A stretch of 43,321 nt of DNA from positions 1 through 43,321 of IMG/VR virus record IMGVR_UViG_3300044950_000235. The stretch is one strand, 5' to 3'. Position numbers and translations under genes: made by a program. Below the pieces are notes generated by a model. It did no database searches. It had not been told where the DNA came from and saw nothing but the letters and a program-made list of their open reading frames with translations. Shown in pieces: positions 3,932 to 43,321 of the stretch (its first letter is position 1; each line of letters begins with the position of its first letter). The DNA comes from a virus.

Positions 3932-4192
3932 TTACCACTTCACCTTATCAGCCCAGTAAGCTGCAGACATTGGCCCTTTTGCAATATTCTTTGCGTGGCG
4001 ATCTTTGAATGCTTTGTTACGAGCAGACCCATCAGGGCTACCCGAAACTCCTTGCTGGCCAAAGTGAATAGTTTTTACTTGGTCACCTGACTTAGCCACC
4101 ACAACATGGCTCTTGGTTGGATGACTTGGAGTAGCCTTGGGCTTGTTGTAGCCCGATACCCCAGCGCGTTCTAAACGAGAATCTTTCTTCAT
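3932..4192 (-). CDS. Small basic conserved-type phage protein, unknown function
   Basis: The protein has 86 residues, is rich in Lys and Arg, and ends AAYWADKVKW. It starts with an ATG that overlaps the stop of the giant protein gene by 4 nt (ATGA), so translation is probably coupled. The N-terminal third is Pro/Ser/Lys-rich (KPKATPSHPTKSH), followed by a short beta-like stretch and a basic helix (FKDRHAKNIAKGPMSAAYW). Similar short proteins are familiar from aquatic phage genomes as hypotheticals, but no function is known to me. Its position suggests a late, possibly virion-associated protein. Confidence 0.7.
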   Translation of the reverse strand: MKKDSRLERAGVSGYNKPKATPSHPTKSHVVVAKSGDQVKTIHFGQQGVSGSPDGSARNKAFKDRHAKNIAKGPMSAAYWADKVKW

Positions 4193-7100: not shown

Positions 7101-10100
7101 TAATCTCCATGAAAGCAAAAGCCTTAGGCAAGTTTTCTTCGAGAAAACTATTACCGCCGGGTGTGTTAAACATAGCCCACAACTGGGCAAACATCTCTAA
7201 GCGAACTTCGTCGGAAGTCAGTTTACTATTTTTGCTACGGTCTAAAGGGTACTTGAATGTTGTAGCAAAATCAGAATCCGGGTTGTTAGTTGCGTACTCA
7301 GCAATCTCAATGGCAACTGCGCCCCGTGCAATGATTCTATTGTCTTTTACCTGCAAGTTAAATTCTGGCTGGCTGGAGTGAATACCATTCTCTCCAAAAG
7401 CATTGTCGGCAATGTGGCCCAACTCGTGGTGGATAGCCCACTCGGATTTGGTTCTATCTACAAGAACCCCGGAGCGAACGGCCACAGTCTGCTTGCCATC
7501 TACCATCATTATGGCGGCATCAAAGTCCACGGTGTCTGGGGCAATCATCCAAGTCTCTACGCCATCAATGACGCTCTGCATACCGTTGGTTTCGTAATGG
7601 CGCAAGGCAGCATCCACGCCGGGAGAGCGACGAAGACTTTCCACATCGGTAATCAGACCATCAAACTTTAGTCCCTCGGCTTTGACTTCAACCGTGTCTC
7701 CACGCTCTAACTGGCGTATTGCACTGGCTTGGGTGCTTAACGCGGATTTCAACGCATTAGCTGTTCTGTTTGAGTCCCGGCTAGAAACAATATCTGAAGG
7801 GTTAATGCTTTCTTGGGAAACTGTAATACGTTCCCCGTTTCGGTCATAGCCACTAAAAACCGACTGGTCTTGGCTAGTAAAGCCATCCAAACGAGTGCCG
7901 TTAGCCAGAGTTACAGGGTTGCGTAGCTCTCTACCAAACTCAGGCTGTCCGGCTACATTTTCTTTACCGAGATACAAGTCAGTAGCAAACAACTGCTTTG
8001 GTTTTTCCCGCTCCATCCTGCGGATTTGAGCAGTAGTTACGTTTTCTTCCTTGCCGACTTGGGTTCTGTCTACGGTAGTGGTCTTTGCGTTTGGTACTAC
8101 CGAAGTTGTAGTCTTTGTCTTAGGGGTAAACGTAGTCCGGGTCAGGTCGTCTTTACCGGATTTGTTTTGCGCAGTGGCTCCAGTCAGAAACTCACCAGTC
8201 AACTCGGCTTTGTCAGGGACAATGAACAGCGCTGCGCCATCCATCTGGGCCATGTTGTTTTCTGTAAGGCTCTTAAAAGTAGCCTTGTCTACATTGATAC
8301 AACCAAACGAGTAGCGGGAATCCCCTGCGCCTTCTTTATTTAGGGCTGCTAAACGTTGTTTGGCGTCGGTCTCTTTTGTCCAAACAGAATGGAACAGGGT
8401 TACGCTGTACTCGCCATCAATGGCTTTGTCTAAAACAAACACTTTTCCAAAGTCATAGTCACCGGCGGTATAGGCTTCGCCTTCGCTGCGCTTTGCGTCA
8501 CGCAGGCCCATAGTAAACAGACCAGCGGGTGTAATGCGGTTTTGTACTTTGTCAGTATTGCCTTTGTAGAAGTCACCCACGGTACGGCCAACCAGTACTT
8601 TCTTTTGCAAGAATAATGAGCCATCAGGCTTAAAGATAAATACGTTGGCTGTCTGCTTGTCCGTAATCACCATGAACTTGTCTTGGGAAACTAGACGGTC
8701 TTTGATGGCCGGATACAGTGTTTCGTACACTTGCTGCGCGGAAGCGGACATCTTGGCTTTTGCCTGCGCTGGTACATCTGCTTTTACCTGTACCGTTTGC
8801 GCTACAGTTTTCGGAGCCATGATAATAAGCTCGCTATTGCCAGCCATCTGCATAGGATTAAAGATCATGGCAACCGACAGTACGCCAGCGTGAATAGCTT
8901 TAATCGTAGAGCGAATGGCTCCGGCAACGGCTTCTGCACCTTTAGTTGCGTACAGGATAACGTCGGCTTTGACCCTAGCCAAGAACTCAGCGGTATCTGA
9001 CTTTACGCCGTAATGTTTTTCCAGTTGCTGGATTGCTGGCGCGGGCAGAGCTAAAACTTGAGGCTTGATAGTCTCATCAATAATCCGAGATTCCACGTCA
9101 ATGATGTTGAACTCGTCGGTTACTTTAAGTGTGTTTCCGTTCGTAGCTTCGTTGTAGTCAATAGATAGCGTGTACAACGGCAAGCCATATTTGGCGTACT
9201 GCTTAGCGGGTGAAGCGGGAGAATCTGGCAACGATTCTGCACGATCCATTTCTTTAAAAATTTTGTCTTGTTCCCGGCTAAGCTGGGTAATTCGGTCGTA
9301 AAAATCTCCGAAAGCTAACTTGGCAGCTTCTCTGTTTCCACTTTTACCTTCGGCGCTAACAATAATTTTTAAGCGTTCTTCAGCAGTAATGCCCAGAGTT
9401 TTATCAAATTTAGCTAACGCACTATCAACTTGTTCGTACTTAGCAGCAAGTTTGTCCAGCGTATCTTCTTTAGTTCCTTCTTGGGTTAGCAAGGTATCTT
9501 TTAGTATTGCAACAGGAAATACCGCATTGGTAACTACGCTATCAGTTTGGTAACCCTTGGAGGTAACACCGGCTTCAACTTTCGGCAATACCAAAATAGT
9601 ATCGCCTTCTCCAGAAAAAGCTTGCCCATCTTTTGTAGTACTAACATTTGTGCCGGGTTTAATTCCGTCGCGCATGATGGACTCTAAGTCTGCATCGGAG
9701 CGTACTGCGTGGTAAACATACTTGGACATGTCCAAGACAGTTTTGGCTGTTAAATCTTTAGTGGTGCTGGTACTCTTAACAGAAACCTTGGCCAGCTTAA
9801 CCAGTTCGGTCTTGACATCATCGGCAGTCCAGTTGTCAGGCCCAAAGCCTACAAATTCTTTTTGCTGCGCTGCAGTCAAGTCAGCAAACTTGGGAGCCTC
9901 AGGGTACTCGGCAACTACCAAGTCCCAAGATTCGGCAGCCTGTTCGGTGTCGGTCTTTATTTCTTTGGCAAAAAGACTACTGGGTTTAATTCCAGCTACA
10001 GGACGTGATTCTGATCTGTTGATAAGCGAGTGCAGTACCACAGGGATTTTTTTAATTTCAAGTTCTCTAGCAATTTGCAGTCGATGATTACCCTCAAATA

Positions 10101-13100
10101 CCTCTGGTTTACCCGCTGGCGTAGTAACAATCGTAATGGGGTCAACTATCCCAGTTTCAGCAATGCTGGCTTTAAGCGCCGCATATTCGGGTGTGCTGGT
10201 GTTTGCTTTATTTCTTTGGTCAACACCGTCAAGCAAGGAAGTGTTAACTACTTCGACTGTGCCTTTTGTTTTGCTGGTGACGCCTTCCCACGGGGCTTTT
10301 GTTTCACTTTTTCCGGCAGGTTTTTCGGCACGCCGTACTTGTCCGCCCACTCTTTGGCTAACTTCGGCTTTTGGCTGAACAGAAACGCTTGTTGTGCTAG
10401 GCTCTTGAATGGCATTGGTTTTCTCCAGTTTGGCTAGTTTGACCGACAGTTCTTTTACCTGTCCGCTTTTGAACTTGACAGTAACCGTTGTGGCGTCACC
10501 AGTACCATCAAAACTCTGCACTACACCAGTACCCAGCTTGGGGTTCGTTACGGTGTCGCCTTTTTGCAGACCTTTACGATCAGTTTCCAGTTTAGCCCGA
10601 GCGTCGTCACGGGCTTTAATTGCTTCAGGGCTTAGTTTTTTCTTGTCCCCGTAATCTACTTCAGAGCCCAATGGAACTGCGCCAGCTTTGGCTTTAGGTG
10701 CTCGTTCAACTTGCCCTTTTTCTTTGGGGGTTGCTTCCAAAAGAGCGGCTTCCAGCTTGGCTCGTTCGGTTTCAATTAGTTCGTTGATGGCTGCAATAGC
10801 TTCTTGGTCGCCTTGCGCTTCAAACTCAGCAAGGGTAGCCCTAAGGGTTTCTTCGGCTTCCAGAGCCGCAGTTATTTTGGATGCAGCTCGGCCTTCTTCG
10901 CCTACCTTTGACCACTCACGCTCGGTGTCCATGCCAAAGCCAGCAGTTTCACCTTCTTCGGATTTAAAGCCTTCGTCAGACAAAGCAGAAGACAACGCTC
11001 GCGTCTGCTCTACTCGGGCTTCTTCCTCAAGGCGATCAATTTTTTCACTGGTTCTGCTAAGTTCTTTAGCAATACGCGCTTTTTCTTCTGGGGTCTTGGC
11101 TGCTTTGTACTCGTTACGCAGATTTTTAATCTCGGCTTCCAATTGCCCAATTTGTGTGTACTGGGCTTTGGTGTTGTCGTCCACCCCAAACAAGTTGAGT
11201 ACTTGGTCAGAGTCTAATCCTAAAGTTTTACCGGCAGCCACCAGCTCACTGGGGTTTCCAATTTTGCGAACACTGACTGGCTTTATTCCGTACCGAGCTG
11301 CAATGGCAGCAACAATTTCGGCTGAACCTTTTACGCGGTCGGCACGGAGTACAGTTAAATACGCACGCAAAATACCTGCATCACGCACTTTATCTTTTGA
11401 CTTGGCAAAGCGGGTGTCAATCAGTTTGGCTACCTGTTCATCGCTAAGGTCTCCAGAGTCAATGCGAGTGCCAGCATCTTCTTGGGCTTGCGCTTCTAGT
11501 TCTGCAGCGTTACCTGTTGCTCTAGCAATGGCTAGTCGATCTTCTGGGCTACGCAGCGGCTGTTGTCTAGACCCAGTAACTGGGGCTTCGTTTAAGTCAG
11601 TTGGAGCCGCAGTAGCTGCCCGCTGTCCCATTCCGGGAGTAACTGTAACTACACGTTTACGGCTAACCACTGGGCCGCTAGGAGCCGCAGTAAGCGCAGC
11701 CACATCAGGAGCAGACACATCAGGAGCAGACACTACAGGAGCGGCAGTCGCAATAGTATCGGTAGTGTCGGGAGTAGAAATTACACCGGTAGACTGTTCG
11801 CCACCGGTATCTGGAAGAAGGCTAACCGACGGAGCTGGGGCTCTAACGAGTCCGGCATTACTACCCACTGTGCTTCGGACTGCATTAGTTGATCCTGAAG
11901 GAGCCAGAGTTCCCGGGAGGACAGTACCCCCAGTTCCCACGCCAGTTGTAATTCCGGCTGCAGGTGCATTTGGTACGCTGACATTGGGAGTTCCTTTGCG
12001 TGCGTTGATAAGCGCAGAGTCAAGTAGCTGCTGGGCTCTCTCCAACCGCTTAAGAGTCATGGGCTTATCGCCAGCAAACTTCCATACATCAATCAGCAAA
12101 TCTGAATCTACAGGAATGCCGGACTGCTGTATCTCGCCGTAGAGTTGGAGAGCTTGTGGCGTTGGCACTACACCGAAGGTATCACGGAGTTCAATTGCGC
12201 GTGGGTCACGAACAATGGTCGCAGCAGCTTTACCTGTTCCGGCAGTAACTTCAGTAGAAGCGGGAGCTGTTAGGTCAATACCGCCAGTGTCTCGTTGGAA
12301 CTGTTCGCCCACGGAGAGTTCGCGCTCTAACCCAGTAACTGGGTCTTGTACGCGCTGGCCGGAGGGTTCGCTGTATGCGGCCTCAAATGTTTTTGCGTAG
12401 TCTTTGGCAGAAGAAGTACGGGTTAACCCTAAGTTCTGCTCAATTCTGTCTTTGATTGGGTCTGGTTCTGTAACTAATAAGTTACGTTCACCGCGTTTGC
12501 GTTCTTCTTCAAGCCGGGCTAGTGCGGCATTGCGAGTATCTTCTAACTGCAACTGGCTATCAAACCAGCTGTCTACGTCTTTCTCGGAAATCCCTTGGCG
12601 GCGAGCCTCGTTGATTACCATGTCGGTAGCTTGAGCCCGAATTTCTGTTGGGGTATCTTGTCCGTACAGGGCTTGTTTTAATTGCTCGGCGCGACGCGAA
12701 CGGCTTACATGTCCACCCAAAGCCAACGGGCCCAAGATGGCTGTTAGGCCAGCACCACCAAGAGCAGACTGCTTGGCGATATCTTCAAGGTCTTCTTCTT
12801 TTGCTCCGTAAGAGCGTTCAATCAGGGAAGTACCAACGTCCTGAGCCACCTCAGTAAGCGGCTGTACCGCCAAGTTGGTAGCGTAGGCTTTGGCAAGTGG
12901 CTTTACTATGGCGGTATCAGTTAATTTACTTGCCAGCCCACCAGTGGTTTTTCCAGTAAGACCAAATAAAGGCCCCGCAGCTCTGATAGCACGTCCGCCT
13001 ACAAAGCTACCTATGGCTTCACCACCACCTTGAAGGACGCCGACACGACGAGCAGCAGCAATAGCCTGTTCTTCGGGTATGCCTTGGTCTATGAGTTTTT

Positions 13101-13581
13101 GATACGTTTCTTGTGCGCTAGAAGTACCATAGAGCAAACCAGCTCCACCAACCATAGCTGCTTGACCAATTCCGGGGATAAATGCTAAAGGCGCAACGGA
13201 CAACGCTGGAGCAACACCGCGAGCGCCAGCAACAAGAGCTTGGCCAACAATACCGCGAGTTTTGTCACCCCGGGTATCTTGTTCGTATTCGGGTGCTCGG
13301 GCTTCGGCAGCCCGCTGCATCTCTAAGCCGTATTGGGGGGCAACACCTGTGTACTGAAGACCCTGCCCAACCATCTTTGGCAAGTCAACCATAGCACCAC
13401 CAGCAAGCTGACGGCCCATTTCACCAACAGTGCCCTTGGGTTTTAAACCAAAGTAGTCGGCGTTATCTTCAAACCGTTCTCCGGTTCTGCGACTGTATTC
13501 CCGTAGTAAGTCTTCATCGGAAAGCCCTTGGAGGTCTTTTGGAGCCGAATCTCTAAGTTCTCGGATTGTATATACAGCCAT
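4189..13581 (-). CDS. Giant polyvalent internal virion protein (ParB-like, L,D-transpeptidase, HELGH zincin)
   Basis: At 3130 residues, this gene fills over a fifth of the window. Approximate regions are: small hydrophobic Ala/Gly-rich segments at 110-300; a Thr/Ser/Val-rich linker at 540-650; a coiled coil at 800-865; a Tudor/CarD-like beta patch near 1005-1045; a ParB-like domain near 1105-1200 (GIVDPITIV, FEGNHRLQIA); a possible ADP-ribosyltransferase-like segment near 1287-1340 (YHAVRSDADLESI); a YkuD-type L,D-transpeptidase at about 1630-1790 (LFHSVW, then SFGCINVD); a zincin motif HHELGHIAD near 2047-2055; and a C-terminal helical part with hydrophobic stretches near 2840-2880. This matches large polyvalent proteins that enter the host with the DNA. 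Likely jobs are wall remodelling during entry and host-directed activities. It overlaps the upstream stop by 1 nt (TAATG). Confidence 0.82.
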   Translation of the reverse strand: MAVYTIRELRDSAPKDLQGLSDEDLLREYSRRTGERFEDNADYFGLKPKGTVGEMGRQLAGGAMVDLPKMVGQGLQYTGVAPQYGLEMQRAAEARAPEYEQDTRGDKTRGIVGQALVAGARGVAPALSVAPLAFIPGIGQAAMVGGAGLLYGTSSAQETYQKLIDQGIPEEQAIAAARRVGVLQGGGEAIGSFVGGRAIRAAGPLFGLTGKTTGGLASKLTDTAIVKPLAKAYATNLAVQPLTEVAQDVGTSLIERSYGAKEEDLEDIAKQSALGGAGLTAILGPLALGGHVSRSRRAEQLKQALYGQDTPTEIRAQATDMVINEARRQGISEKDVDSWFDSQLQLEDTRNAALARLEEERKRGERNLLVTEPDPIKDRIEQNLGLTRTSSAKDYAKTFEAAYSEPSGQRVQDPVTGLERELSVGEQFQRDTGGIDLTAPASTEVTAGTGKAAATIVRDPRAIELRDTFGVVPTPQALQLYGEIQQSGIPVDSDLLIDVWKFAGDKPMTLKRLERAQQLLDSALINARKGTPNVSVPNAPAAGITTGVGTGGTVLPGTLAPSGSTNAVRSTVGSNAGLVRAPAPSVSLLPDTGGEQSTGVISTPDTTDTIATAAPVVSAPDVSAPDVAALTAAPSGPVVSRKRVVTVTPGMGQRAATAAPTDLNEAPVTGSRQQPLRSPEDRLAIARATGNAAELEAQAQEDAGTRIDSGDLSDEQVAKLIDTRFAKSKDKVRDAGILRAYLTVLRADRVKGSAEIVAAIAARYGIKPVSVRKIGNPSELVAAGKTLGLDSDQVLNLFGVDDNTKAQYTQIGQLEAEIKNLRNEYKAAKTPEEKARIAKELSRTSEKIDRLEEEARVEQTRALSSALSDEGFKSEEGETAGFGMDTEREWSKVGEEGRAASKITAALEAEETLRATLAEFEAQGDQEAIAAINELIETERAKLEAALLEATPKEKGQVERAPKAKAGAVPLGSEVDYGDKKKLSPEAIKARDDARAKLETDRKGLQKGDTVTNPKLGTGVVQSFDGTGDATTVTVKFKSGQVKELSVKLAKLEKTNAIQEPSTTSVSVQPKAEVSQRVGGQVRRAEKPAGKSETKAPWEGVTSKTKGTVEVVNTSLLDGVDQRNKANTSTPEYAALKASIAETGIVDPITIVTTPAGKPEVFEGNHRLQIARELEIKKIPVVLHSLINRSESRPVAGIKPSSLFAKEIKTDTEQAAESWDLVVAEYPEAPKFADLTAAQQKEFVGFGPDNWTADDVKTELVKLAKVSVKSTSTTKDLTAKTVLDMSKYVYHAVRSDADLESIMRDGIKPGTNVSTTKDGQAFSGEGDTILVLPKVEAGVTSKGYQTDSVVTNAVFPVAILKDTLLTQEGTKEDTLDKLAAKYEQVDSALAKFDKTLGITAEERLKIIVSAEGKSGNREAAKLAFGDFYDRITQLSREQDKIFKEMDRAESLPDSPASPAKQYAKYGLPLYTLSIDYNEATNGNTLKVTDEFNIIDVESRIIDETIKPQVLALPAPAIQQLEKHYGVKSDTAEFLARVKADVILYATKGAEAVAGAIRSTIKAIHAGVLSVAMIFNPMQMAGNSELIIMAPKTVAQTVQVKADVPAQAKAKMSASAQQVYETLYPAIKDRLVSQDKFMVITDKQTANVFIFKPDGSLFLQKKVLVGRTVGDFYKGNTDKVQNRITPAGLFTMGLRDAKRSEGEAYTAGDYDFGKVFVLDKAIDGEYSVTLFHSVWTKETDAKQRLAALNKEGAGDSRYSFGCINVDKATFKSLTENNMAQMDGAALFIVPDKAELTGEFLTGATAQNKSGKDDLTRTTFTPKTKTTTSVVPNAKTTTVDRTQVGKEENVTTAQIRRMEREKPKQLFATDLYLGKENVAGQPEFGRELRNPVTLANGTRLDGFTSQDQSVFSGYDRNGERITVSQESINPSDIVSSRDSNRTANALKSALSTQASAIRQLERGDTVEVKAEGLKFDGLITDVESLRRSPGVDAALRHYETNGMQSVIDGVETWMIAPDTVDFDAAIMMVDGKQTVAVRSGVLVDRTKSEWAIHHELGHIADNAFGENGIHSSQPEFNLQVKDNRIIARGAVAIEIAEYATNNPDSDFATTFKYPLDRSKNSKLTSDEVRLEMFAQLWAMFNTPGGNSFLEENLPKAFAFMEITDATTKQAESSTAAQAAARTPVKERGPQAPSNRGGSGLSNPLQPNRPRFLNRPDQGLVQKNIAKLPQALQQPVRNSLAALGDFAGKGLDKLVFTSDLVNRAVAGGLTSARNFADLISASKSEAREAERTVEKIADMYALVPEQDRGIGPSSFNQFLFDSTRETKWGYGKYRDDVMGDRFDALAPETQKLVKAIFEHGSTVLSQKKKVVIDSAVSEYDAMIKSAQDMGDKEAEGKLKGEKVSTLKRFDTLFKVRDGLPYAPIKRTGSHVVIAKSAEYAAAEQRKDKVALAKLENDGDHYHVSFTDGKWDARTLQSQLQDQGFFESVDIAERDTVADELFGGASSLRELTKMRAKVEGNLQAGDKSASKLLSIVSQMYLEALAEGSARKSEMRRRGVAGELDMLQSFAQQGRADAQFMASVKYNPQVQDALQQMRNQAKTGDRARRSELLNELSKRYMQSMDYSPNPWLNKLTRMSSVYFLATSPAYYLQNLTQPWIMSVPAMAGRHDYTAASAALFKAYTELGPVMRSAKLLKQQFDFAQVPADVRNAIKTLADQGKIDIGLDSEIGEFRIEGQGAIREKFNAVDKALRLAVQKVESVNRLSTAMAAYRLEFAKTKDEAKATEYAGRILTETHGDYTSFNAPRAFNNPVGKVALQFRKFQLIQLAFHAKLIKDAFTNPAERAAALRTLGYSLAHTGVLAGAMGLPGYAALSWIIGAMFGDDDEDYNLTQEIRKAIGDEDISNMVLRGTPTLLGADISGKVGAGNMLSVLPFNNADITTRAGLFQTVGTLVGGASLGMTANMVDGLGLMLAGDWHKGIERTMPKGVGDAMKAYRMQTEGMTRRNGDVILPAEDISAMAGLLQLFGIQPVKQAVVYERQQNIRDQDQKFQSRATQIKNEYVKAVKGRDTEAAAEARAAWAKLQATRVEKGYTRQPLSILLRAPQEQAKRERDTRGGVQFNKANKRAVTEEATL

Positions 13582-16417: not shown

Positions 16418-16612
16418 CTACTGCAATCTATCTACTATTTCGTTAAGCCTAGCAATAACTTCTGCAAGCGTTGCTCCGGAACTTAAATGTTGAAACCTAG
16501 TTACGTTGCGTCCTTGTCCGGTTATGGCATCCAAATTTTGTTTTACCGAAGACAGCGCAAGGTCTAAATCTCCCTTACCGGTACGGACAGTGGGGATGGC
16601 AGCTTTGGTCAT
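16418..16612 (-). CDS. Small late protein (64 aa), unknown function
   Basis: The protein is helical in its C-terminal half (ATLAEVIARLNEIVDRLQ), which could form a short coiled coil. Its ATG overlaps the stop of the nozzle-like tail gene by 4 nt (ATGA), showing coupled translation and supporting reality despite its size. Similar short proteins sit between tail and internal virion genes in other podoviruses, where they may be assembly or tail-plug factors. That assignment is inferred from position only. Confidence 0.65.
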   Translation of the reverse strand: MTKAAIPTVRTGKGDLDLALSSVKQNLDAITGQGRNVTRFQHLSSGATLAEVIARLNEIVDRLQ

Positions 16613-18618
16613 GCGGATGTTTGAGATAGTTCAAATACAGATTCAGCTACTGTTATGGTATACACGTTGACGGAGGTATTTATACCCACGCTGTACACCT
16701 CGGTCAAGTAGCCAGCGGGCATACGGAACGGGCTAACCGAAGTTACGTTTTTGGTAAACACGGGTACATCCTTGGAGAACAACGTAAACTGAACCCGCTT
16801 GGGGGTATCTTGATCCACTGGAATAATATTACTTCCGTTGACCTCCATAGACAGGAGCTCCATACCGTTCAGGTGACCCGATACCGCATCAGCCCCCAGT
16901 GCTATAAGGGCTACGTTAGCGGCAATCTGCGTTGTATTGATAGGCACAATCGCAGAATAGTCAGCGTGAATCTGGGCTGTCGTAAAGTTCAGAGGCTTAG
17001 GTAGCTGGAAAGATGCGCTCAACCAATCGCTCTCGTAACTTTTCCCCCCATCGTAGTCCCACTGGTACAGTTTATTGGCCTTAGCTACATATAGCTTGCC
17101 GTCGTAGTCGTTGCGGTAGATATCTGTAACATAGTCGTCGACCTCAATAATGCTATCAGCCTCGGTTATGTCCAGAACAATCATACGGCTTTCGGCCCCC
17201 ACGTAGGCTGCGTAGTATTTGTTGTCGTGGAACGCCGCATCAAACGTCGACGGATTAAGCAATGACCACTCATCAATCCGGTACAAGTTACGAGTAATAC
17301 ACTCAACCCGCCCGGGAGCAATTAGCCACAAGCCGTCGTAACTGGGGTACAAGGCTCCACCACCAACATTGGCAATTCCGCGTTTAGCTACGCAAGGAGC
17401 GTAGGTTTCCAGCGTACTAGCGCTCATCCCTTGGGGGTCAGAGCCCGTGAACAGAACTGGGAACGTGTCAGTTAGCAAAATAACCGCATTGATAGATGGC
17501 ACTACAGCTACACCACGCCCGCTAAAAGAGTACCGATTACGGACTGGCCACGAGTACGGCATGTAGGGGTCACTGAAGCACAATTCGTTTTCAGCAATTC
17601 CAACCAAGCACCCGTTGGGGAGTGCGGCTATGCTTACCAAGTTCTTCGGTGGTGTAGAGGAGTCAGCAGTCGGAAGTACCTCACCCAAGTCAGCAGAAGT
17701 AACGGTATCCGCGTACGACGTTGTGGCTACAGCGACTTCACCAACATACAAAAATGTGCCCGCAGTACCGACAGTACGGTATATCCGTTTGACCATGCCA
17801 GTGACGTTGTGGGGTGCGTTTCTAGTCCAAGTCCCGCCGCTAGTGTATGTTTGAGCTGTTTGTAGAGCGACTTCAACGTAACTACTGGCTACATTTACAG
17901 TTAAAACACGATAAGAGGCGTTCAGGCTAGTCATCCCAACCACACTAGCAAAAGTCAAAGTATCGTACTGCTGTATGCCGAACACGGTATCTAGGGTGAT
18001 ACGAATTCGTCCAGTACCGGTAGTAGTGGCTCCGGTAATAGTTCCGGAGTTTGGTGGCGCTGTCTGCATGGACGCAACTGTCCACGTACCACTGGCGTTG
18101 CCCGTCACTATCGTAGATGGGGGAGACGGGGGAGATTCTTCTCCCAGAGTTGTAACGTATGTATATACATACGAGCGCGATTCCGTTGGAGCAGCTCCGC
18201 CAGCCACCGTCACACCTGCAGCCGTTGAGGGAGCCGAAACACCTAAAGCGAACCACGCCGTTGGGTACGGAGTCGCGCTAATAGCGGCCGTGTAGGTTGA
18301 CATTCGAGGTTCAAAGTTCTCCCCAGTAAAGTAGAACCGCCCTTCGGCATCGTTGGCAATCAGCGATTGCGCCACGTCCACGTCCGAATCCCAAGTCAAC
18401 CAGTTGGTCTCAAAAACTTCGTTCCTGTATACGCGATAGCGATTGGTAGTCTTAATATTTCCAGTAGTGGTAAACACCAGCCCCAACCCAGCAAGAGGGT
18501 CTAGGCGTCCGGAGGTTAACTTGCAGTTAAGAGCCCTAACCGCTTGGTTTGATTTAAGTAGGCGGTCGCTTGTACGGGGAACTTGTCCCCGAAACGCTTT
18601 GATGTTTATAGCAACCAT
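16609..18618 (-). CDS. Putative tail nozzle/tubular protein (669 aa)
   Basis: The start was set at the ATG at 18618 (MVAINIKAFRG), which has AAGG 7 nt upstream and follows the previous stop by 11 nt; a longer in-frame start at 18669 would run into the preceding gene. The protein is beta-rich with an Ig/fibronectin-like insertion (ESRSYVYTYVTTLGEESPPS, about 165-185) and repeated blade-like strands, as in tail tubular protein B or nozzle proteins of podoviruses. Those proteins form the distal tail that fibres attach to. Its position between a fibre module and the internal virion proteins agrees. The assignment is by layout, so another large tail protein is possible. Confidence 0.6.
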   Translation of the reverse strand: MVAINIKAFRGQVPRTSDRLLKSNQAVRALNCKLTSGRLDPLAGLGLVFTTTGNIKTTNRYRVYRNEVFETNWLTWDSDVDVAQSLIANDAEGRFYFTGENFEPRMSTYTAAISATPYPTAWFALGVSAPSTAAGVTVAGGAAPTESRSYVYTYVTTLGEESPPSPPSTIVTGNASGTWTVASMQTAPPNSGTITGATTTGTGRIRITLDTVFGIQQYDTLTFASVVGMTSLNASYRVLTVNVASSYVEVALQTAQTYTSGGTWTRNAPHNVTGMVKRIYRTVGTAGTFLYVGEVAVATTSYADTVTSADLGEVLPTADSSTPPKNLVSIAALPNGCLVGIAENELCFSDPYMPYSWPVRNRYSFSGRGVAVVPSINAVILLTDTFPVLFTGSDPQGMSASTLETYAPCVAKRGIANVGGGALYPSYDGLWLIAPGRVECITRNLYRIDEWSLLNPSTFDAAFHDNKYYAAYVGAESRMIVLDITEADSIIEVDDYVTDIYRNDYDGKLYVAKANKLYQWDYDGGKSYESDWLSASFQLPKPLNFTTAQIHADYSAIVPINTTQIAANVALIALGADAVSGHLNGMELLSMEVNGSNIIPVDQDTPKRVQFTLFSKDVPVFTKNVTSVSPFRMPAGYLTEVYSVGINTSVNVYTITVAESVFELSQTSA

Positions 18619-18629
18619 TGTGCGGCCTT

Positions 18630-19355
18630 TTAAGTTATGGAGCCGTAGCGCGTGCCCGTGACTAACCAAGTCGCAAATGAATTTCCTACTACCGCAAGGC
18701 CACCAGCGCCTCCGGCGGTTGCATCACTGCCACCGTAGTTTTCTCCCATTACGCCTGAAGAACCCCAATTTCCTCCGGGGCCACCGGTTCCAGCACCGGG
18801 TGTGTTATTTGGAGACGCTGCGGCAGCAAAGGTTCCGTATGGAGTTTCACCTGATCGACCGCCAGACCCAGTAATAGAATTATTACGACCCGTTCTACCA
18901 CCGCCACCGCCGCCGCCAGCACCACCTCCTGAGCCATACCCACCGCCGCCGCCGCCGCCGCCAATAATGTTATTGTTCGTTAGGGTGGTATTTCTAAGCA
19001 ACCGCAGCGCGGGGCCGCCAGCAGAACCGCTTAAACCTGATCCAGAATTGGCTCCGTTGCCGCCTTGCCCAATGATGTACCCATTGTTGATGACTGTTAC
19101 CGTATCGTAGGGGCTAAATGCCGAATCAACTGTTAGCGCGTAAAGGGATGTGCTATTTGCGGAAATAACAATTCCGCTTGCAATTGTAAAAATAACGTCC
19201 GTTAAACCCGGCAAATATCCCGGCCCGGGAGATGGTGAGTCTGAAGCAACAGTAGTGGGACTAAGAGAATAATTAAAAACATCACTCGAAATAGTAATTG
19301 TTTTTGTTAACCGCTGCCCCCCGCTGCCAGAAAGGACGTTATGGATTGCGGCCAT
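18630..19355 (-). CDS. Glycine-rich tail adhesin, copy 2
   Basis: This 241-residue protein has an N-terminal beta domain (TITISSDVFNYSLSP, then PYDTVTVINNGYIIG) and a C-terminal region made of Gly-rich stretches, including runs of eight and seven glycines. This resembles the polyglycine-II sandwich of gp38-type tail-fibre tip adhesins, which decide receptor binding. Its N-terminal domain clearly matches that of the protein at 28428-29222, so the two are paralogues. The ATG shares 1 nt with the stop of the fibre gene at 19355 (TGATG), so fibre and adhesin are probably made together. Confidence 0.72.
   Translation of the reverse strand: MAAIHNVLSGSGGQRLTKTITISSDVFNYSLSPTTVASDSPSPGPGYLPGLTDVIFTIASGIVISANSTSLYALTVDSAFSPYDTVTVINNGYIIGQGGNGANSGSGLSGSAGGPALRLLRNTTLTNNNIIGGGGGGGGYGSGGGAGGGGGGGRTGRNNSITGSGGRSGETPYGTFAAAASPNNTPGAGTGGPGGNWGSSGVMGENYGGSDATAGGAGGLAVVGNSFATWLVTGTRYGSIT
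18941..18962. repeat. Trinucleotide (CCG)n tract in adhesin gene
   Basis: An almost uninterrupted CCG run on the + strand encodes consecutive glycines on the - strand. Slippage would change the number of glycines without shifting the frame. Similar but shorter tracts lie in the other two glycine-rich genes (for example near 25440 and 28709-28732). Confidence 0.75.
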
Positions 19356-20293
19356 CAGAACACTCCGGCCCCAGAAATTACAGCCGTAGTTGCATTTATG
19401 TAAACAACAGTTGCAAGACCGTTAAGTGCAAGGCTCCTATTTCCGGTGCTTCCAAGTCCAGCCCAGTAAAGAGTCAAGCTAGTTCCAGAAACTAAAGACT
19501 TTGTAGTATTCGTGCTGTTGTAAATTGTCACAACATCATTGGCTGCAAAAATATTGGCGGGTAACGTTAAGGTAGCAGAAATTGATACTAGGCCCCCGCG
19601 ATCTGTAAGAACAAGAGTCCCCGTAGTTGTGCTGGGAGAAAGCGACCGTAAGCGATCAACAAATGCGGTACTGGCAAGAGCTGTAGTATTAGTTCCCGAA
19701 GCCTGAGTAGTAGTCGTGCCGGTGTAAACGCCGTTAAATGTGTTAGCCCCGCTAAAGGAGTTATCCCCACTAAAAGTGTTGTTACCGCTCAGGGTATTAG
19801 CCCCGCTCAGGGTATTAGCCCCGCTAAAAGTGTTAGCCCCGCTGAAGGTGTTAGCTGCGCTAAAGGTGTTAGCTGCGCTGAAGGTGTTAGCTGCGCTGAA
19901 GGTGTTAGCTGCGCTGAAGGTGTTAGTCCCACTAAACGCGTTATTTTGCGAGGGAATAGCCAAGGCTACGGCCAAATCAGCAGCCGTAACTCGTAGCCCA
20001 ACAACTGTACCGGCAGTAAAAGCAAGAGCTGTTGTACTTTCTTGGCCACGAATTACGTTGCTTAAAATAGCTGAGCCAGACGCTCGTGTGCGTACATAAA
20101 CAATTTCTACGTTCCCTGCTGAGTCTTGAAGAGTAACCTTAAACCAGTTGGTCGCCGCCGGAACTGAGCTTGTGCCCGTGTTGGCTACGGGAAAAAGGTC
20201 TGCGCTAGCGGAGTCCACGACAATAGATGTCGCCGTATCCGTAATGGTAGACGCAAGCACCGCTCGGGCGTTATTAGTAAATTGTTGTGGCAT
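19355..20293 (-). CDS. Tail-fibre protein with hexapeptide repeats
   Basis: This 312-residue protein has three parts. The N-terminal 110 residues (MPQQFTNNARAVLAS, VEIVYVRTRAS) look like an attachment domain. The middle, about residues 117-188, holds twelve tandem hexapeptides of the NTFSAA/NTFSGA type that should form a stiff fibrous stalk. The C-terminal domain (ANDVVTIYN, LNGLATVVYINATTAVISG) resembles the end of the protein at 29224-29703. It starts with GGAG 6 nt before the ATG, close behind a candidate promoter, and overlaps the downstream adhesin gene. The fibre probably carries the glycine-rich protein at its tip, by analogy with fibre/adhesin pairs in other phages. Confidence 0.72.
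   Translation of the reverse strand: MPQQFTNNARAVLASTITDTATSIVVDSASADLFPVANTGTSSVPAATNWFKVTLQDSAGNVEIVYVRTRASGSAILSNVIRGQESTTALAFTAGTVVGLRVTAADLAVALAIPSQNNAFSGTNTFSAANTFSAANTFSAANTFSAANTFSGANTFSGANTLSGANTLSGNNTFSGDNSFSGANTFNGVYTGTTTTQASGTNTTALASTAFVDRLRSLSPSTTTGTLVLTDRGGLVSISATLTLPANIFAANDVVTIYNSTNTTKSLVSGTSLTLYWAGLGSTGNRSLALNGLATVVYINATTAVISGAGVF
19730..19945. repeat. Twelve tandem 18-bp units in the fibre gene
   Basis: The 216-bp array encodes twelve hexapeptides. The four units around 19850-19928 are nearly identical (GTTAGCTGCGCTGAAGGT type), while outer units have diverged. This suggests recent expansion in the centre. It is a coding minisatellite, not a CRISPR array: there are no spacers. 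Confidence 0.9.
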
Positions 20294-39113: not shown

Positions 39114-39141
39114 ATTGTACTCTTTACCATACATTGGTCAA
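39114..39141 (-). promoter_or_regulatory. Candidate sigma70 promoter for the portal gene
   Basis: On the - strand TTGACC (39136-39141), 16 bp, TACAAT (39114-39119). The predicted leader to the ATG at 39068 is about 40 nt and contains an AGGA 8 nt before the start. The -35 box overlaps the terminase stop codon. This is a motif-based call, weaker than the promoter before the 80-residue gene. Confidence 0.5.
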
Positions 39142-40610
39142 GTATATATGTATCCGGTTGACTTTATTTCTCGGCGTTTCTGGCCAAACTCAGCACCCCG
39201 GATGTTCATATCCATCACCGAATCGGCGTACTGGTTCGCGTCGTGGCAGTGAGAAAACTCGTTTTTGTCCGGTTTATCCTCGATTTCACCGTTTTTCTTG
39301 ATCTTGTAGCGGTACCCGTACCGAAATCCTTTTATGAGCTGAACGCAACCCGGGTCAATCAGGTACATGGCTTTACCCTCCATCTGCTGGCTGAGTAGGC
39401 GCTCCACTGCCTGAATCCGCAATTCTGGCTTGTTTGTCGGCGGCCGCACACACTTAAACCCTGCCTGCTTGAGCACATCTACAAGCGACATCTCGTTCTG
39501 CTGCTGTTTGGCAAACCCAGCTGGGTCAGGCGCACACAGCATGGTACACCCTTGCAGGTGATTGGCAATAAACGGATTGAGTTTAGTCCGAACAAAAGTC
39601 TCTATTCCCATGTTCTCGGACACCAGCTCGGCCAGCGTGACTACACGCCCGCGAGGGTCTCTCTGCTTAAACACAGCCGCCGGGGTTCTACCAAAGTCTA
39701 TACCAATAATCACTGGGTAGTCCGCGCTGCGTATTGGTTTTATGGGCTCCTTGGCTACGTGGAAGTCCGCTGTAAATGTCTTCTCGTACACCGGCGTACC
39801 GCTCAAGCTACGGCCGTATTCAGACCGCAGATACACACGTAACCAGTCCTCGGTCTTACCCGGGATCAAGTTGGGGTAGTACGCTTTTGGCAGGTGGTCG
39901 TAGTTGTCGCACTCTGGATTGACCGCCCACTCTCCGCCGTCTTTGTCCAGCAGTACCTCTTCCGGTTCTTCCTGAAATTTATCCAAGTACGCGTCCGGCT
40001 TCAAGATGGCTGTCGGCTGTTTGTAAATCGCCCAGTTCGATGGGGGACTCTCCATCTTGTCGTGCCACCAAGTGTCCTCGTCCGGCATGTTGGTATCGAA
40101 CAACGCACACGACCGCGTGGGCCCACCGTCCTTCATTGACGGATACCTGTTCAGACGACCGAGCAGACCATCAACAACGTCTTGGTGGAGCTCCCTTGCC
40201 TCGTTACCCCAGATAAATGTGGTCTCCAGTGACAGCGCCTTACGCACGTCGTCCGGTGTATCCAACGCAATGAACAGCCACTCCGACTCCACCTGCGTCC
40301 CGTCCGGCAGCCGAGCCATCAGGATAAATGTCTTCTCTACGGCTTTCCATATCCCAGCCTCTCCGGGCGGCAGCCAGTCAAACACCGTTTTGCGAGTTGT
40401 CAACGCCAGCTGGTCGGCCGTGTTACGCACAATAACCGCTCGAGTCTTACGAATATTACGGGCATTCGGGGCCTGCCCCATCGCCAGTCGTACAAGTTCG
40501 TGTACACACGTCACCGATTTGCCCCCTCCAACCGGCCCCGCTAAGACTCGAACGTATTTCTCATCAAGCATGAACTCTCGTTGGGTGGGCGTGGGTTTGT
40601 ATGTACTCAT
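39138..40610 (-). CDS. terL: Terminase large subunit
   Basis: The 490-residue protein has Walker A GPVGGGKS (residues 25-32), a Walker B-like TFIWGNEARE (about 131-140) and a C-terminal RNase H-like nuclease: GIDFGRTPA near 300, PDPAG near 365, and HDANQYADS near 455. These residues power DNA packaging and cut the concatemer at the portal. The ATG overlaps the small-subunit stop by 4 nt (ATGA). It is somewhat short among terminases but has all the expected motifs. Packaging type (headful or fixed-end) cannot be decided from it here. Confidence 0.92.
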   Translation of the reverse strand: MSTYKPTPTQREFMLDEKYVRVLAGPVGGGKSVTCVHELVRLAMGQAPNARNIRKTRAVIVRNTADQLALTTRKTVFDWLPPGEAGIWKAVEKTFILMARLPDGTQVESEWLFIALDTPDDVRKALSLETTFIWGNEARELHQDVVDGLLGRLNRYPSMKDGGPTRSCALFDTNMPDEDTWWHDKMESPPSNWAIYKQPTAILKPDAYLDKFQEEPEEVLLDKDGGEWAVNPECDNYDHLPKAYYPNLIPGKTEDWLRVYLRSEYGRSLSGTPVYEKTFTADFHVAKEPIKPIRSADYPVIIGIDFGRTPAAVFKQRDPRGRVVTLAELVSENMGIETFVRTKLNPFIANHLQGCTMLCAPDPAGFAKQQQNEMSLVDVLKQAGFKCVRPPTNKPELRIQAVERLLSQQMEGKAMYLIDPGCVQLIKGFRYGYRYKIKKNGEIEDKPDKNEFSHCHDANQYADSVMDMNIRGAEFGQKRREIKSTGYIYT

Positions 40611-41149
40611 TCGGAGTTCTCGGAATCAGACTTCGCCTTTTCAGGAATCTGTTTGGGTGAAACGTCTATGACCATCGGGGTTGCCGCGTTCTGGCTGCTC
40701 ATGCTCACACTACGGTCTCCCAAGTCGATGGACAAACTAAACGTAGGCCCAGAATTCTGGGATTTTTCTTCTTTGGGTTCAAGTCCAGCGGCTCGTATCA
40801 TGGTTTTCATAATGTCGTGCTTCTGATTCAGGCTAGCATCAGGACTTGCGGCCATCACATACACCTGATCCAAGAGCTCAGCGGCCATCCATGTGGCTTT
40901 AGCCTTGAATGTAACCCCATTCTTGACAAACTCGGAGCGTTTTACCTCAACTTGGAGCTGGAACCAAGGCTGGACGGCCAATTCTTGGTACTTTTCCATG
41001 CTGATACCGTGCCGAGCGGCCACGATTAGCTCATCTTCGGCTCCCAGAGCGATACTTGCCAGCATTTCATCGCTGACTTGCGGGAACGACAGTGTTTTTG
41101 GAGCGTACTCCAAGGGTTCGTCCCCAATATCTAGGTCAGCCAGCGACAT
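40607..41149 (-). CDS. Probable terminase small subunit
   Basis: The 180-residue protein lies directly before the large subunit and overlaps it by 4 nt. An N-terminal helix-turn-helix-like region (DELIVAARHGISMEKYQELA, about 38-57) could bind the packaging site. A central helical part (KATWMAAELLDQVYVMAASP) may mediate oligomer formation. The C-terminal third is charged and probably contacts TerL. GGAG lies 7 nt upstream of the ATG. The start overlaps the RHH gene end by 14 nt. Sequence families of TerS diverge greatly, so the call is mainly from position and layout. Confidence 0.75.
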   Translation of the reverse strand: MSLADLDIGDEPLEYAPKTLSFPQVSDEMLASIALGAEDELIVAARHGISMEKYQELAVQPWFQLQVEVKRSEFVKNGVTFKAKATWMAAELLDQVYVMAASPDASLNQKHDIMKTMIRAAGLEPKEEKSQNSGPTFSLSIDLGDRSVSMSSQNAATPMVIDVSPKQIPEKAKSDSENSE

Positions 41150-41321
41150 TTTCGCTCTCCAAAGCCGCAGCTTCAGCTTTTTTTACGGCTGCCATGTACT
41201 TTTCGCACGCTACACGCATGACATCAGCGGCTGTTACGCCCTTTTTGACTGCTAATTTCTTGACTTCCTCCAGTAAATCTTGGGGGAAAAACATGTTCCA
41301 TCGCTTCATTTCAGAGGACAT
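41136..41321 (-). CDS. Ribbon-helix-helix (Arc/MetJ-type) regulator, first gene of the late block
   Basis: The start was set at ATG 41321 (61 residues), with AGGAG 6 nt upstream; a longer frame to 41585 crosses repeats and the promoter and is rejected. The peptide has a ribbon strand (KRWNMFFPQ, about 6-14) and two helices (LLEEVKKLAVKKG; TAADVMRVACEKYMAA), the classic RHH plan for dimeric DNA-binding proteins. A Lys/Ala/Glu-rich tail follows. It overlaps TerS by 14 nt. A TACACACC sequence lies between its promoter and its ATG and recurs in the early region, so it may repress its own operon and the early genes. This link is inferred. Confidence 0.75.
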   Translation of the reverse strand: MSSEMKRWNMFFPQDLLEEVKKLAVKKGVTAADVMRVACEKYMAAVKKAEAAALESENVAG

Positions 41322-41332
41322 TTCTGCTCCTA

Positions 41333-41395
41333 GGTGTGTATATGTATGTGAGTATAACACTTTTTTTATTTTTTGTGCGTATATGTATACACACC
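41333..41395. repeat. Inverted TACACACC pair flanking the late promoter
   Basis: GGTGTGTATA (41333-41342) and TATACACACC (41386-41395) are exact reverse complements 43 bp apart. The promoter of the RHH gene lies between them, and the left arm is 11 bp upstream of its ATG. An operator pair for looping or for cooperative binding by a dimeric RHH protein would fit. Confidence 0.6.
41351..41359 (-). promoter_or_regulatory. Candidate extended -10 promoter for the late block
   Basis: On the - strand TGTTATACT reads as an extended -10 element (TGn followed by TATACT, five of six matches). No good -35 box was seen; the upstream DNA is an A-tract run that could help RNA polymerase bind. The predicted start near 41344 would place the TACACACC arm within the first transcribed bases, 20 nt before the ATG. 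Confidence 0.45.
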
Positions 41396-41439
41396 CCCTA
41401 TTTTTTTCGTCTGCTGTAAGACTGGGCCCTAAGCAGGCA

Positions 41440-41476
41440 GGGGGCGGGGGGTGGGTGTGGGGGGCCTGGGGGTGGG
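41440..41476 (+). other. G-quadruplex-forming sequence
   Basis: The + strand has five tracts of three or more G (5, 6, 3, 6, 5 and a final 3) separated by loops of one to three bases. This fits the intramolecular quadruplex rule with room to spare. It lies about 120 bp upstream of the RHH start, in the non-coding control region. Nothing else of this composition was seen in the window. Confidence 0.7.
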
Positions 41477-41481
41477 TGTCC

Positions 41482-41543
41482 GAGTAGCAAGGCCGCCGAC
41501 TATGGGAAGTGGGTTTGGCTACACGGAGTAGCAAGGCCGCCGA
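41482..41543. repeat. 18-bp direct repeat in the control region
   Basis: GAGTAGCAAGGCCGCCGA occurs at 41482-41499 and again at 41526-41543, 44 bp apart (start to start). The second copy also has a GCAAGG that can pair with CCTTGC at 41578-41583. Neither copy lies in a credible gene. They may be protein-binding sites or part of an RNA. Confidence 0.8.
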
Positions 41544-41674
41544 ACATGGATTGAGCATCGGCTCTCCGCCCCGTGAACCTTGCATCTAGTAGGCTCATGC
41601 TAAGCGCCAAACCCGAAAGGGCGTGAGGTAGCAGTGTGGACACCCGAACGAAGTGTAGGTGGGATTCTTGCCCA
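41544..41674. other. Unassigned part of the control region
   Basis: From the repeats to the candidate early promoter, no credible gene was seen on either strand. The - strand frames through here cross the repeats and lack ribosome sites. The segment could hold an untranslated RNA, but no tRNA or other known fold was recognised. Confidence 0.4.
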
Positions 41675-41704
41675 TTAACAATTTGATGCGTGAACCGATA
41701 TGCT
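41675..41704 (+). promoter_or_regulatory. Candidate early promoter, + strand
   Basis: TTAACA (41675-41680), 18 bp, TATGCT (41699-41704). The predicted start at about 41711 would leave a 190-nt untranslated leader before the ATG at 41902. The -10 match is modest (four of six), so the call leans on its position next to the palindrome that follows. Confidence 0.38.
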
Positions 41705-41705
41705 T

Positions 41706-41720
41706 TGAGAATGATTCTCA
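41706..41720. promoter_or_regulatory. Perfect 7-1-7 palindrome resembling a Fur box
   Basis: TGAGAAT-G-ATTCTCA matches the 7-1-7 Fur model TGATAAT-n-ATTATCA at 12 of 14 positions, and 41707-41725 matches the 19-bp consensus at 14 of 19. It covers the predicted +1 of the candidate promoter, a repressing position. A phage-coded regulator with a similar site cannot be excluded. Confidence 0.5.
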
Positions 41721-41743
41721 TTGTGTCGCAGTAACACGATTTT

Positions 41744-41857
41744 ATAGGTTTGCGTGAAGTAACCTATCGGTAATACCGCATCCAATACCGCAAGCCATAG
41801 GGGTAGGTATAAACACGCAAGGCATGGCGTGGGATGCGGCTTTAATATAAGCCTTGC
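41744..41857 (+). promoter_or_regulatory. Structured leader of the 142-aa gene
   Basis: Several inverted repeats lie here: ATAGGTT/AACCTAT (41744-41767), GCAAGGC/GCCTTGC (41817-41857) and an inner GGCTT/AAGCC (41838-41853) that shares bases with the previous pair, so the two stems compete. A 9-bp direct repeat AATACCGCA (41772, 41784) lies between. The leader may control expression, but no known riboswitch was recognised. Confidence 0.4.
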
Positions 41858-41901
41858 ATGGTGTAGGGTTTATATATCAAGCCAACTTTTAAGGATAAAT
41901 C

Positions 41902-42330
41902 ATGTCTAATTCTATTACCGTATTTTCCAACGACAATTCTATCGTTACCTTTGAGAACAAAAGCGGTGTGCAATTTGCGCTTAGCGCCGAGGGTGCATTG
42001 TTCAAAGGTGGTGCAGCATTGGTGGCATTAAAAGATGCAGCATTGTTGTCAGCATACAACAAAGCCCGTGATGGAAAATACCGCAGTGCGGCCGATGTAA
42101 TCGGGGCGTCATTCCCTTCGACTACCAAAGCCTTCGAGAAAATTATCGGTAGCGCATGGGCCAACAAGTCTGCTATGTGCTCATTCCTCAGCGCCATTGA
42201 GCGTGCCGAGCCTGGAAAATCTGGGTACAGCAAAAAGCAAAATGATGCCAAAGGGTTTGTTGCATACCTTCGTGAGAATGTGCCTTCGCTGGCCGCAAAC
42301 CCAGAAGATGCATTCACTATCAACGCCTAA
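41902..42330 (+). CDS. Unknown early-type protein (142 aa)
   Basis: The protein begins MSNSITVFSNDNSIVTFENK, a short beta-rich start. It continues with an Ala/Lys-rich helical part (FKGGAALVALKDAALLSAYN; TTKAFEKIIGSAWANKSAMC) and a C-terminal helix. AAGGAT lies 5 nt before the ATG. It is the first gene of the right-hand + strand block, behind a long structured leader. No family was recognised. Length and position suggest an early host-takeover or regulatory protein, but this is inference. Confidence 0.7.
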   Translation: MSNSITVFSNDNSIVTFENKSGVQFALSAEGALFKGGAALVALKDAALLSAYNKARDGKYRSAADVIGASFPSTTKAFEKIIGSAWANKSAMCSFLSAIERAEPGKSGYSKKQNDAKGFVAYLRENVPSLAANPEDAFTINA

Positions 42331-42354
42331 ACCTTGCCCCTAGGTCATAGCCTG

Positions 42355-42373
42355 AAGCCCATCATGTGGGCTT
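42355..42373 (+). other. 7-bp hairpin between early genes
   Basis: AAGCCCA (42355-42361) and TGGGCTT (42367-42373) pair around TCATG. No T-run follows. It lies 25 nt after the 142-aa gene and 27 nt before the next ATG, so it may separate or protect the two messages. Confidence 0.55.
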
Positions 42374-42399
42374 TGGAGTGTCACCTTCAAAGGAAAGAT

Positions 42400-42648
42400 A
42401 TGCGTACACACCTTGTACCCAAGGGCGCGATGCCTCCAATGCCACCACTCGTAACTGGCGATGTGGGGCGCAAACTCCAAGGCGGATTACCACCCGAGCC
42501 ATACCGCGCTCGTAATGCATGGGGCAATGCGTATCGCCGTGCTCAAAATGATGGTGTGAGTAAATCATGCCGTGCCGAATGCTTCCATGCAACAAGCGAA
42601 TGGGATAAAAATGCCCGCAAAGGTATGGGCGGATTCATCGCCGCCTAA
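42400..42648 (+). CDS. Unknown early-type protein (82 aa)
   Basis: ATG 42400 was chosen (AAAGGAAAG 4 nt upstream); a longer frame to 42334 begins at a weak TTG inside the previous spacer. The protein starts MRTHLVPKGAMPPMPPLVTG and is basic and aromatic in the middle (PYRARNAWGNAYRRAQNDG), with two cysteines and two histidines nearby (SKSCRAECFHATSEW), which could be a small metal site. The DNA for MRTHLV contains one TACACACC copy. Function unknown. Confidence 0.65.
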   Translation: MRTHLVPKGAMPPMPPLVTGDVGRKLQGGLPPEPYRARNAWGNAYRRAQNDGVSKSCRAECFHATSEWDKNARKGMGGFIAA

Positions 42649-42992
42649 TTATCTTGCCAAAAAGTGTCGGATAAATGTACGGATAAATACAAAACCTAGT
42701 GTTTGTGCGGTCTCCCAAGCCTATTTATCTAATTATCTAATTATCTTATTAAATATGGGTACGCGTGTATGTGAAGCCGACTTCGTGCATACACACCTTA
42801 GAGCGCGCAAAGAAAAGCGACCCTTAAAATCCGCCCTGCCCCAAACCACCCCGAGATAATTACCCTAGGGTAAACCCTATACATACGCCACAAGCGTGTG
42901 TTCATGCGGGCTGCGGGACATACACACCCAATTTCTATTTATCTTGGGGGGTGGATAATTGCATTTTTCAAGATAAATGCCCCGAGATAATT
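42647..42992. repeat. Cluster of eleven GATAAWT boxes, possible origin or operator array
   Basis: GATAAWT or its complement starts at 42647, 42670, 42682, 42723, 42731, 42739, 42855, 42937, 42954, 42972 and 42986. Inside are a perfect 10-bp inverted repeat (ATTTATCTTG 42937-42946, CAAGATAAAT 42969-42978) and a 15-bp direct repeat CCCCGAGATAATTAC (42849, 42980). The 410-bp stretch from 42649 to 43058 has no credible gene. AT-rich iterons next to replication-type genes suggest an origin; a repressor array is the alternative. Confidence 0.55.
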
Positions 42993-43002
42993 ACAACTTC
43001 AC

Positions 43003-43021
43003 ATACATACATTGTATGTAT
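43003..43021. promoter_or_regulatory. Perfect 9-1-9 palindrome
   Basis: ATACATACA-T-TGTATGTAT. Its last base is the first base of a TACACACC copy, and it lies 38 bp upstream of the next ATG. A similar but imperfect ATATGTATAC stretch precedes the copy at 41388, so palindrome and TACACACC may form one composite site. Confidence 0.55.
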
Positions 43022-43058
43022 ACACACCAAATCCCTGTCAACCAACTGGAGAATCAAA

Positions 43059-43214
43059 ATGATGTTTTTCATCAACACATCCCTGCCTGAGCGTACGCAT
43101 ACACACCAAATTCCACAAATCGCGGAAGATGATGACGAATTCGTATTCGAGTATCGCCCCGAAATCATGGACGAAGAGACCGACCGTATGCAGCACTCAT
43201 TCGACCGCGACTGA
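43059..43214 (+). CDS. Small acidic early-type protein (51 aa)
   Basis: ATG 43059 is chosen because GGAG lies 7 nt upstream; a longer frame to 42951 would start inside the repeat array. The peptide (MMFFINTSLPERTHTHQIPQ, then EDDDEFVFEYRPEIMDEETD) is strongly acidic, the sort of small protein that often inhibits host DNA-binding enzymes by mimicking DNA charge. That function is only a suggestion. Its leader is nearly the same as that of the next gene. Confidence 0.6.
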   Translation: MMFFINTSLPERTHTHQIPQIAEDDDEFVFEYRPEIMDEETDRMQHSFDRD

Positions 43215-43256
43215 CCAAATCCCACTGCCAATCCCCCAACCAACTGGAGAATCATC

Positions 43257-43321
43257 ATGCGTGTAATAGTATCTTTTGGCTTCATTGGGGTAGACCCCGA
43301 CAGCCCAGTAGCCGATGAAAT
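43257..43321 (+). CDS. Start of a further early-type gene (3' partial)
   Basis: An ATG at 43257 follows an 18-nt leader identical to that of the preceding gene (with GGAG as Shine-Dalgarno). Twenty-one codons are visible (MRVIVSFGFIGVDPDSPVAD, E) before the window ends. Too little is present to assign a function. Confidence 0.65.
   Translation, partial: MRVIVSFGFIGVDPDSPVADE

Follow-up and report, generated by a model that had tools for sequence, protein, structure and literature searches.

We propose that the copies of TACACACC clustered near the right end of the window (the whole stretch of DNA analysed, an entire virus record of 43,321 bases) are operators of an Arc/CopG-type repressor, the product of the RHH gene lying beside them, which would act on its own late promoter and on the early/origin region. 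We give this reading a probability of about 0.6; from the arrangement and the conservation of the sites we infer physical binding, the sign of the regulation and the consequences for the early region. The record is probably a fragment of a genome of about 60 kb; the longest relatives reach 55-63 kb, and two of these, G004 and G001, have matching 127-base ends. More than 80 related contigs were recognised by their terminase, and the comparison set comprised about 145 loci with 50 distinct RHH proteins. Prophage relatives were not found among 84,980 species, nor were cultured phage relatives found for the RHH protein or for the window DNA. The features of the window are collected in Table 1.

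Table 1. Genes, putative operators and promoter elements near the right end of the window.
Feature	Position	Strand	Basis
Terminase large subunit (TerL)	39138..40610	-	PHROG terminase large subunit, 3.6e-24
180-aa protein between RHH and TerL	40607..41149	-	possible small terminase by position
Predicted gene of a 61-aa RHH regulator, at the head of the leftward late/terminase block	41136..41321	-	Pfam RHH_5; PHROG Arc-like repressor
Putative promoter-proximal operator CATACATATACACACC, covering the late transcript from about +5	41333..41348	-	18.6 bits; position relative to -10 and SD as in 41 promoters
-10-like TATACT of the RHH/late promoter, A-tracts at the -35 place	41351..41356	-	alignment of 41 promoters, CAAAAAATTAAAAAA..TAxAAT
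Putative upstream operator, imperfect palindrome ATATGTATACACAC	41381..41395	.	2 mismatches to GTGTGTATACACAC; 20.1 bits
TACACACC copy just past the start codon of early gene 42400-42648	42405..42412	+	exact copy; weak by matrix
Early noncoding region interleaved with putative operators	42649..43058	+	AATTATCT iterons (42731, 42739), GGGTAAACCC (42868), TTCATGCGGG
Early-region half-site	42782..42798	+	17.4 bits
Early-region half-site ACATACACACC, downstream of conserved TTCATGCGGG	42921..42928	+	exact copy; conserved context
Best putative early operator, near-palindrome GTATGTATACACAC, upstream of the 51-aa ORF	43013..43029	+	23.0 bits (best in the window); 1 mismatch to the palindrome
Early-region half-site inside 51-aa ORF 43059-43214	43092..43108	+	18.9 bits

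Profile searches and modelling place the predicted protein in the RHH (MetJ/Arc/CopG) superfamily, both by its profile and by the order of a strand followed by two helices. The match to Pfam RHH_5 (E=4.3e-6) scores 26.8 bits for a cut-off of 26, and among PDB profiles ORF56 (8e-7) and CopG (1.4e-4) were matched. The AlphaFold model has a mean pLDDT of 88, and its closest folds are those of ORF56, CdbA, Arc and CopG, with Foldseek E-values of 0.04 or more. In the monomer the helices span residues 14-27 and 31-60, and the strand forms only in the dimer. Throughout the family (about 145 loci) Arg7 is invariant and Asn9 nearly so, in the DNA-reading strand of the fold. The preliminary description had taken the protein for the first product of the late block, and its gene does stand at the head of this block, ahead of the genes of the 180-aa protein, TerL and the portal on the same strand; many relatives likewise have it before TerL. 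For the 180-aa protein profile searches gave no match, and its model, with a predicted N-terminal three-helix region, is poor (mean pLDDT only 61.7). A 3130-aa protein is encoded elsewhere in the window (4189-13581, minus strand), with weak matches to ParB_N and YkuD and with a 2927-aa counterpart at a similar place in G004. Hairpin promoters of an N4-type virion RNA polymerase were considered and rejected, the 3130-aa protein having no polymerase match in Pfam. The late gene 19355-20293 (minus strand) contains a short tandem repeat of GGTGTTAGC words with an 18-bp period, at 19740-19926.

Exact copies of TACACACC stand at 41333(-), 41388(+), 42405(+), 42790(+), 42921(+), 43021(+) and 43100(+), with one more at 21080(-), which bears out the seven copies in less than 2 kb and the single copy elsewhere that had been counted by eye. 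The eight copies compare with 1.23 expected, and none of 100 dinucleotide shuffles reaches eight. A scan of 1.8 kb stretches, which corrects for the post hoc choice of the 8-mer, yielded seven copies for TACACACC, while the highest count of any 8-mer was 3-5 over 40 shuffles; the count is thus far above chance even when the word is picked afterwards. The 8-mer consists of one C and the downstream half of GTGTGTATACACAC, a 14-bp palindrome. The palindromes of the window are degenerate, the promoter-proximal one reading CATACATATACACACC and the upstream one ATATGTATACACACC. A weight matrix trained on relatives only, with the window left out, placed five of the seven clustered copies among the seven best matches of the window, 43013 being the first; the copies that it favours (43013, 41380, 43092, 41332 and 42782) score well above most of the window. 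Of the remaining two of the seven best matches, one is the 43013 site read on the opposite strand and the other lies off the clusters, at 18155. The copy at 42405 is weak by the matrix, and that at 42921 falls outside the top 16, yet the context of the latter is conserved in relatives. The off-cluster match, third best in the window, is a near-operator sequence, TATGTATATACATACG (18155-18174), inside the late gene 16609-18669. An Rfam search of 41100-43321 returned no known RNA element.

Conservation of the motif upstream of the RHH gene in relatives, the lack of which would have refuted the proposal according to the preliminary description, is clearly seen. Among the 39 distinct RHH lineages with 320 nt of upstream sequence, 37 (95%) carry at least two half-sites in that interval, as against 0.5% of control pieces from the same contigs; the mean number of TACACAC/TACATAC half-sites per 320 nt is 3.7 upstream of RHH and 0.1 in the controls. 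The alignment of 41 distinct RHH promoters from relatives reveals a common layout in which A-tracts at the -35 position are followed by a -10 of the form TAxAAT, mostly with GTGTGTATACACAC directly next to it, and then by the Shine-Dalgarno (SD) sequence and the ATG. Most relatives have a second copy of the palindrome further upstream. The sigma-70 scan, for which a -35 is required, did not report the -10 of the window. Phased A-tracts CAAAAAATTAAAAAA (41341-41395, minus strand) replace the -35 box and are conserved in the 41 promoters; the late promoter may need an activator or may use the A-tracts directly. Further upstream (41400-41430 in the window), TCTTACAGCA and GCTTACGAC-like words are conserved in many relatives.

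The copies at 41333 and 41388 had been described as an inverted pair around the promoter. They do face in opposite directions with the -10-like TATACT between them, but the pair could not be upheld as an operator unit: the sites of relatives are palindromes or half-sites, and their promoter copies usually point in the same direction. Some lineages have an extra small gene between the promoter and RHH, and in these the site remains beside the -10 and not beside the RHH start codon; therefore it belongs to the promoter. The inserted gene, found in L140, L142, L048, L076 and L079, encodes a small, apparently membrane-type protein. This fixed position also bears on the proposal that another phage protein, be it a small terminase at a packaging site or a replication initiator, reads the sites, their presence at the RHH promoter being incidental. 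Packaging sites often lie near terminase genes, and the 180-aa neighbour is possibly a small terminase by its position. However, a site that is near-constant after the RHH -10 in most of the 41 promoters, and that stays put despite gene insertion, makes such a coincidence quite improbable.

Lone half-sites have a preferred direction. At the promoter they follow the RHH sense (53:7) and in the early region the early sense (122:35); counted by locus, the two arms give 27:3 and 27:2 along transcription. The p-values of this polarity overstate the case because the loci are related, while the direction is consistent. Polarity speaks against the operator model, as simple operators need not have it, and would suit a terminase or an initiator as the reader of the sites. 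It would also suit a function of the motif in the nascent RNA or at the transcription start, of a leader or antitermination-like kind and read by host or phage factors, since the half-sites follow the sense of transcription on both arms and several of them lie just upstream of an SD sequence and a start codon. We consider this function highly improbable. It accounts poorly for the polarity: of the two promoter copies the second, which in most lineages is oriented likewise, stands ahead of the -10 and so is not transcribed. Furthermore, SD and ATG follow 16 of the 122 early half-sites and 12 of 122 control positions, that is, without excess, and a palindrome is the usual target of proteins that bind DNA as dimers.

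The motif also changes together with the RHH protein. Of the 50 distinct RHHs, only that of the L078 lineage and of the contigs sharing it has Thr in place of Asn-9. Here TACACAC gives way to GTATTAAC, of which three copies lie at the RHH promoter and two in the early region, their orientations unchanged; the swap of motif and residue is a single, though specific, evolutionary event. Coming on top of the conservation in 37 of the 39 lineages, this replacement alongside a changed contact residue makes binding of the motif by RHH, as originally suggested, a well-supported prediction, and it argues against a terminase or an initiator as the reader of the sites. TACATAC accompanies a Phe-to-Tyr change in one clade. 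A simple code linking Phe11-to-Tyr with TACATAC was rejected, as it fits only partly: L006 and L105 combine TACATAC with Phe, and TACACAC persists at the promoter or in the early region of some Tyr lineages.

Most relatives possess further putative operator copies 1-2 kb from the RHH promoter, at the start of the early block. The spacing of the early-block sites in the window is 79-385 bp, and no promoter could be recognised next to most early copies. Near-complete relatives of 55-63 kb have all or most of their sites at the RHH promoter and in the early cluster. Thus, all six palindromes of G007 fall within 57810-59562 of 61,578 bases, the seven TGTATACAT matches of the L033 genome all lie within 2 kb of 58,566 and the four ATACAYAC matches of the L142 genome all lie within 1.7 kb of 62,982; scattered extra half-sites occur in some genomes (G001, G017 and G018). 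The long leader ahead of the first early gene of the window contains a palindrome, TGAGAATGATTCTCA (41706-41722), which is Fur-box-like by eye.

A second repeat family is found among the early sites, AATTATCC with the lineage variants AATTAGAC, TAATATCC, TTAATCC and AATAAGAC, often in three copies with an 8-bp period. About 115 nt past these iterons there is another copy of the repeat and then GGGTWWACCC, followed about 34 nt later by YCATGCGG; each of these two words occurs in the early region of 23 of 28 lineages, and the order and spacing of the whole iteron-like element, which more than 20 relatives have at this place, are conserved in most of the 28. The corresponding noncoding region of the window is, by its sequence, a candidate replication origin. 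The iterons drift in sequence by lineage, which implies a second, co-evolving DNA-binding protein. GC skew gives no consistent sign of an origin, its minimum lying at 41330 in the window, near the RHH promoter in G001 and far off in G004. The interleaving of the early sites with triple 8-bp repeats, GGGTWWACCC and YCATGCGG at constant order and spacing is consistent with RHH binding mainly as a controller of replication or copy number at the early origin, where it would limit initiation or origin transcription in the manner of the plasmid repressors CopG and ORF56, self-repression only holding its level constant, and the nearest solved relatives, ORF56 and CopG, are plasmid copy-control proteins. 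On the other hand, RHH is cotranscribed with terminase and structural genes and not with a replication gene, and the origin is itself a candidate for which the GC skew minima of relatives disagree. A main role of this kind appears to us unlikely.

We describe the mechanism in terms of an autoregulatory repressor. Arc and CopG repressors bind as dimers, two per palindrome. By analogy with them, each half-site, 6-7 bp long, would be recognised by one RHH dimer, and a whole palindrome by a pair. With a site lying across the late-promoter start, RHH would be expected to repress its own operon: bound at the -10/start, it would block RNA polymerase, acting as a self-limiting repressor of the RHH-terminase-structural operon, and on accumulating it may occupy the early/origin-like sites and damp early transcription and/or replication. 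Since putative sites lie at its own promoter and across the early-gene start, self-regulation with early damping is the probable outcome. A switch between early and late transcription, which had been suggested at first, finds no support; the overlap of the site with the late-promoter start points to self-repression of the late operon, and most early copies lack a recognisable promoter. A broader picture, which we advance with considerable doubt, is that the first late protein of a virulent family, an RHH with polar half-sites, represses the late promoter and the origin/early region and so restrains lytic replication much as plasmids control their copy number, the protein having diversified along with its operator across the lineages (TACACAC, TACATAC and GTATTAAC). 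A large uncultured phage family gains here its first predicted regulon, comprising a single regulator with its operator code and a mapped late promoter. Furthermore, the natural operator swap with a single DNA-reading residue provides a ready test of specificity change in RHH proteins, and the conserved iteron-like element nearby can be tested as an origin.

Literature searches found only archaeal-virus and plasmid analogues of this RHH. The protein resembles Arc (phage P22), CopG (pMV158) and ORF56 (pRN1) in being a small RHH with sequence and fold matches to them, in its predicted self-regulating operator over the promoter and in a palindromic site fitting two dimers. Whereas Arc belongs to the immunity region of a temperate phage, the window RHH heads a late operon, has extra early sites and belongs to a phage for which the search found no prophage relatives. 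CopG and ORF56 control plasmid copy number, in contrast to the late-operon position of the window RHH gene; a CopG-type operon with a replication initiator is absent, the downstream genes being those of the 180-aa protein, TerL and the portal. Among viral RHH repressors, which bind as dimers, two per palindrome, SvtR (SIRV1) and F55 (SSV1) are archaeal-virus proteins that bind several viral promoters besides their own; a structural gene is among the targets repressed by SvtR, and F55 lies over early-gene transcription starts and maintains lysogeny (PMC5569661). Their hosts are archaeal and their motifs are different, whereas in the phages studied here most early sites lie off recognisable promoters and the half-sites are polar. 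Oriented, non-palindromic 7-bp half-sites over several promoters including its own are bound by Omega, the RHH ParB of pSM19035 (PMC9499535). Omega sites form contiguous arrays of 7-10 heptads and the protein has a ParA partner, whereas the sites described here are tens to hundreds of bases apart; contiguous heptad arrays are absent from the early block of the window, and no ParA was found among 11 early G004 proteins scanned against Pfam and/or PHROGs, the small ORFs being scanned in part. The feature shared by Arc, SvtR and F55, a conserved operator at the repressor's own promoter, has its counterpart here in the site found in 37 of 39 lineages, directly after the -10. In a family for which cultured relatives of the regulator were not found, the window RHH is, judged from its sequence, a further case of the autoregulated RHH repressors known from viruses.
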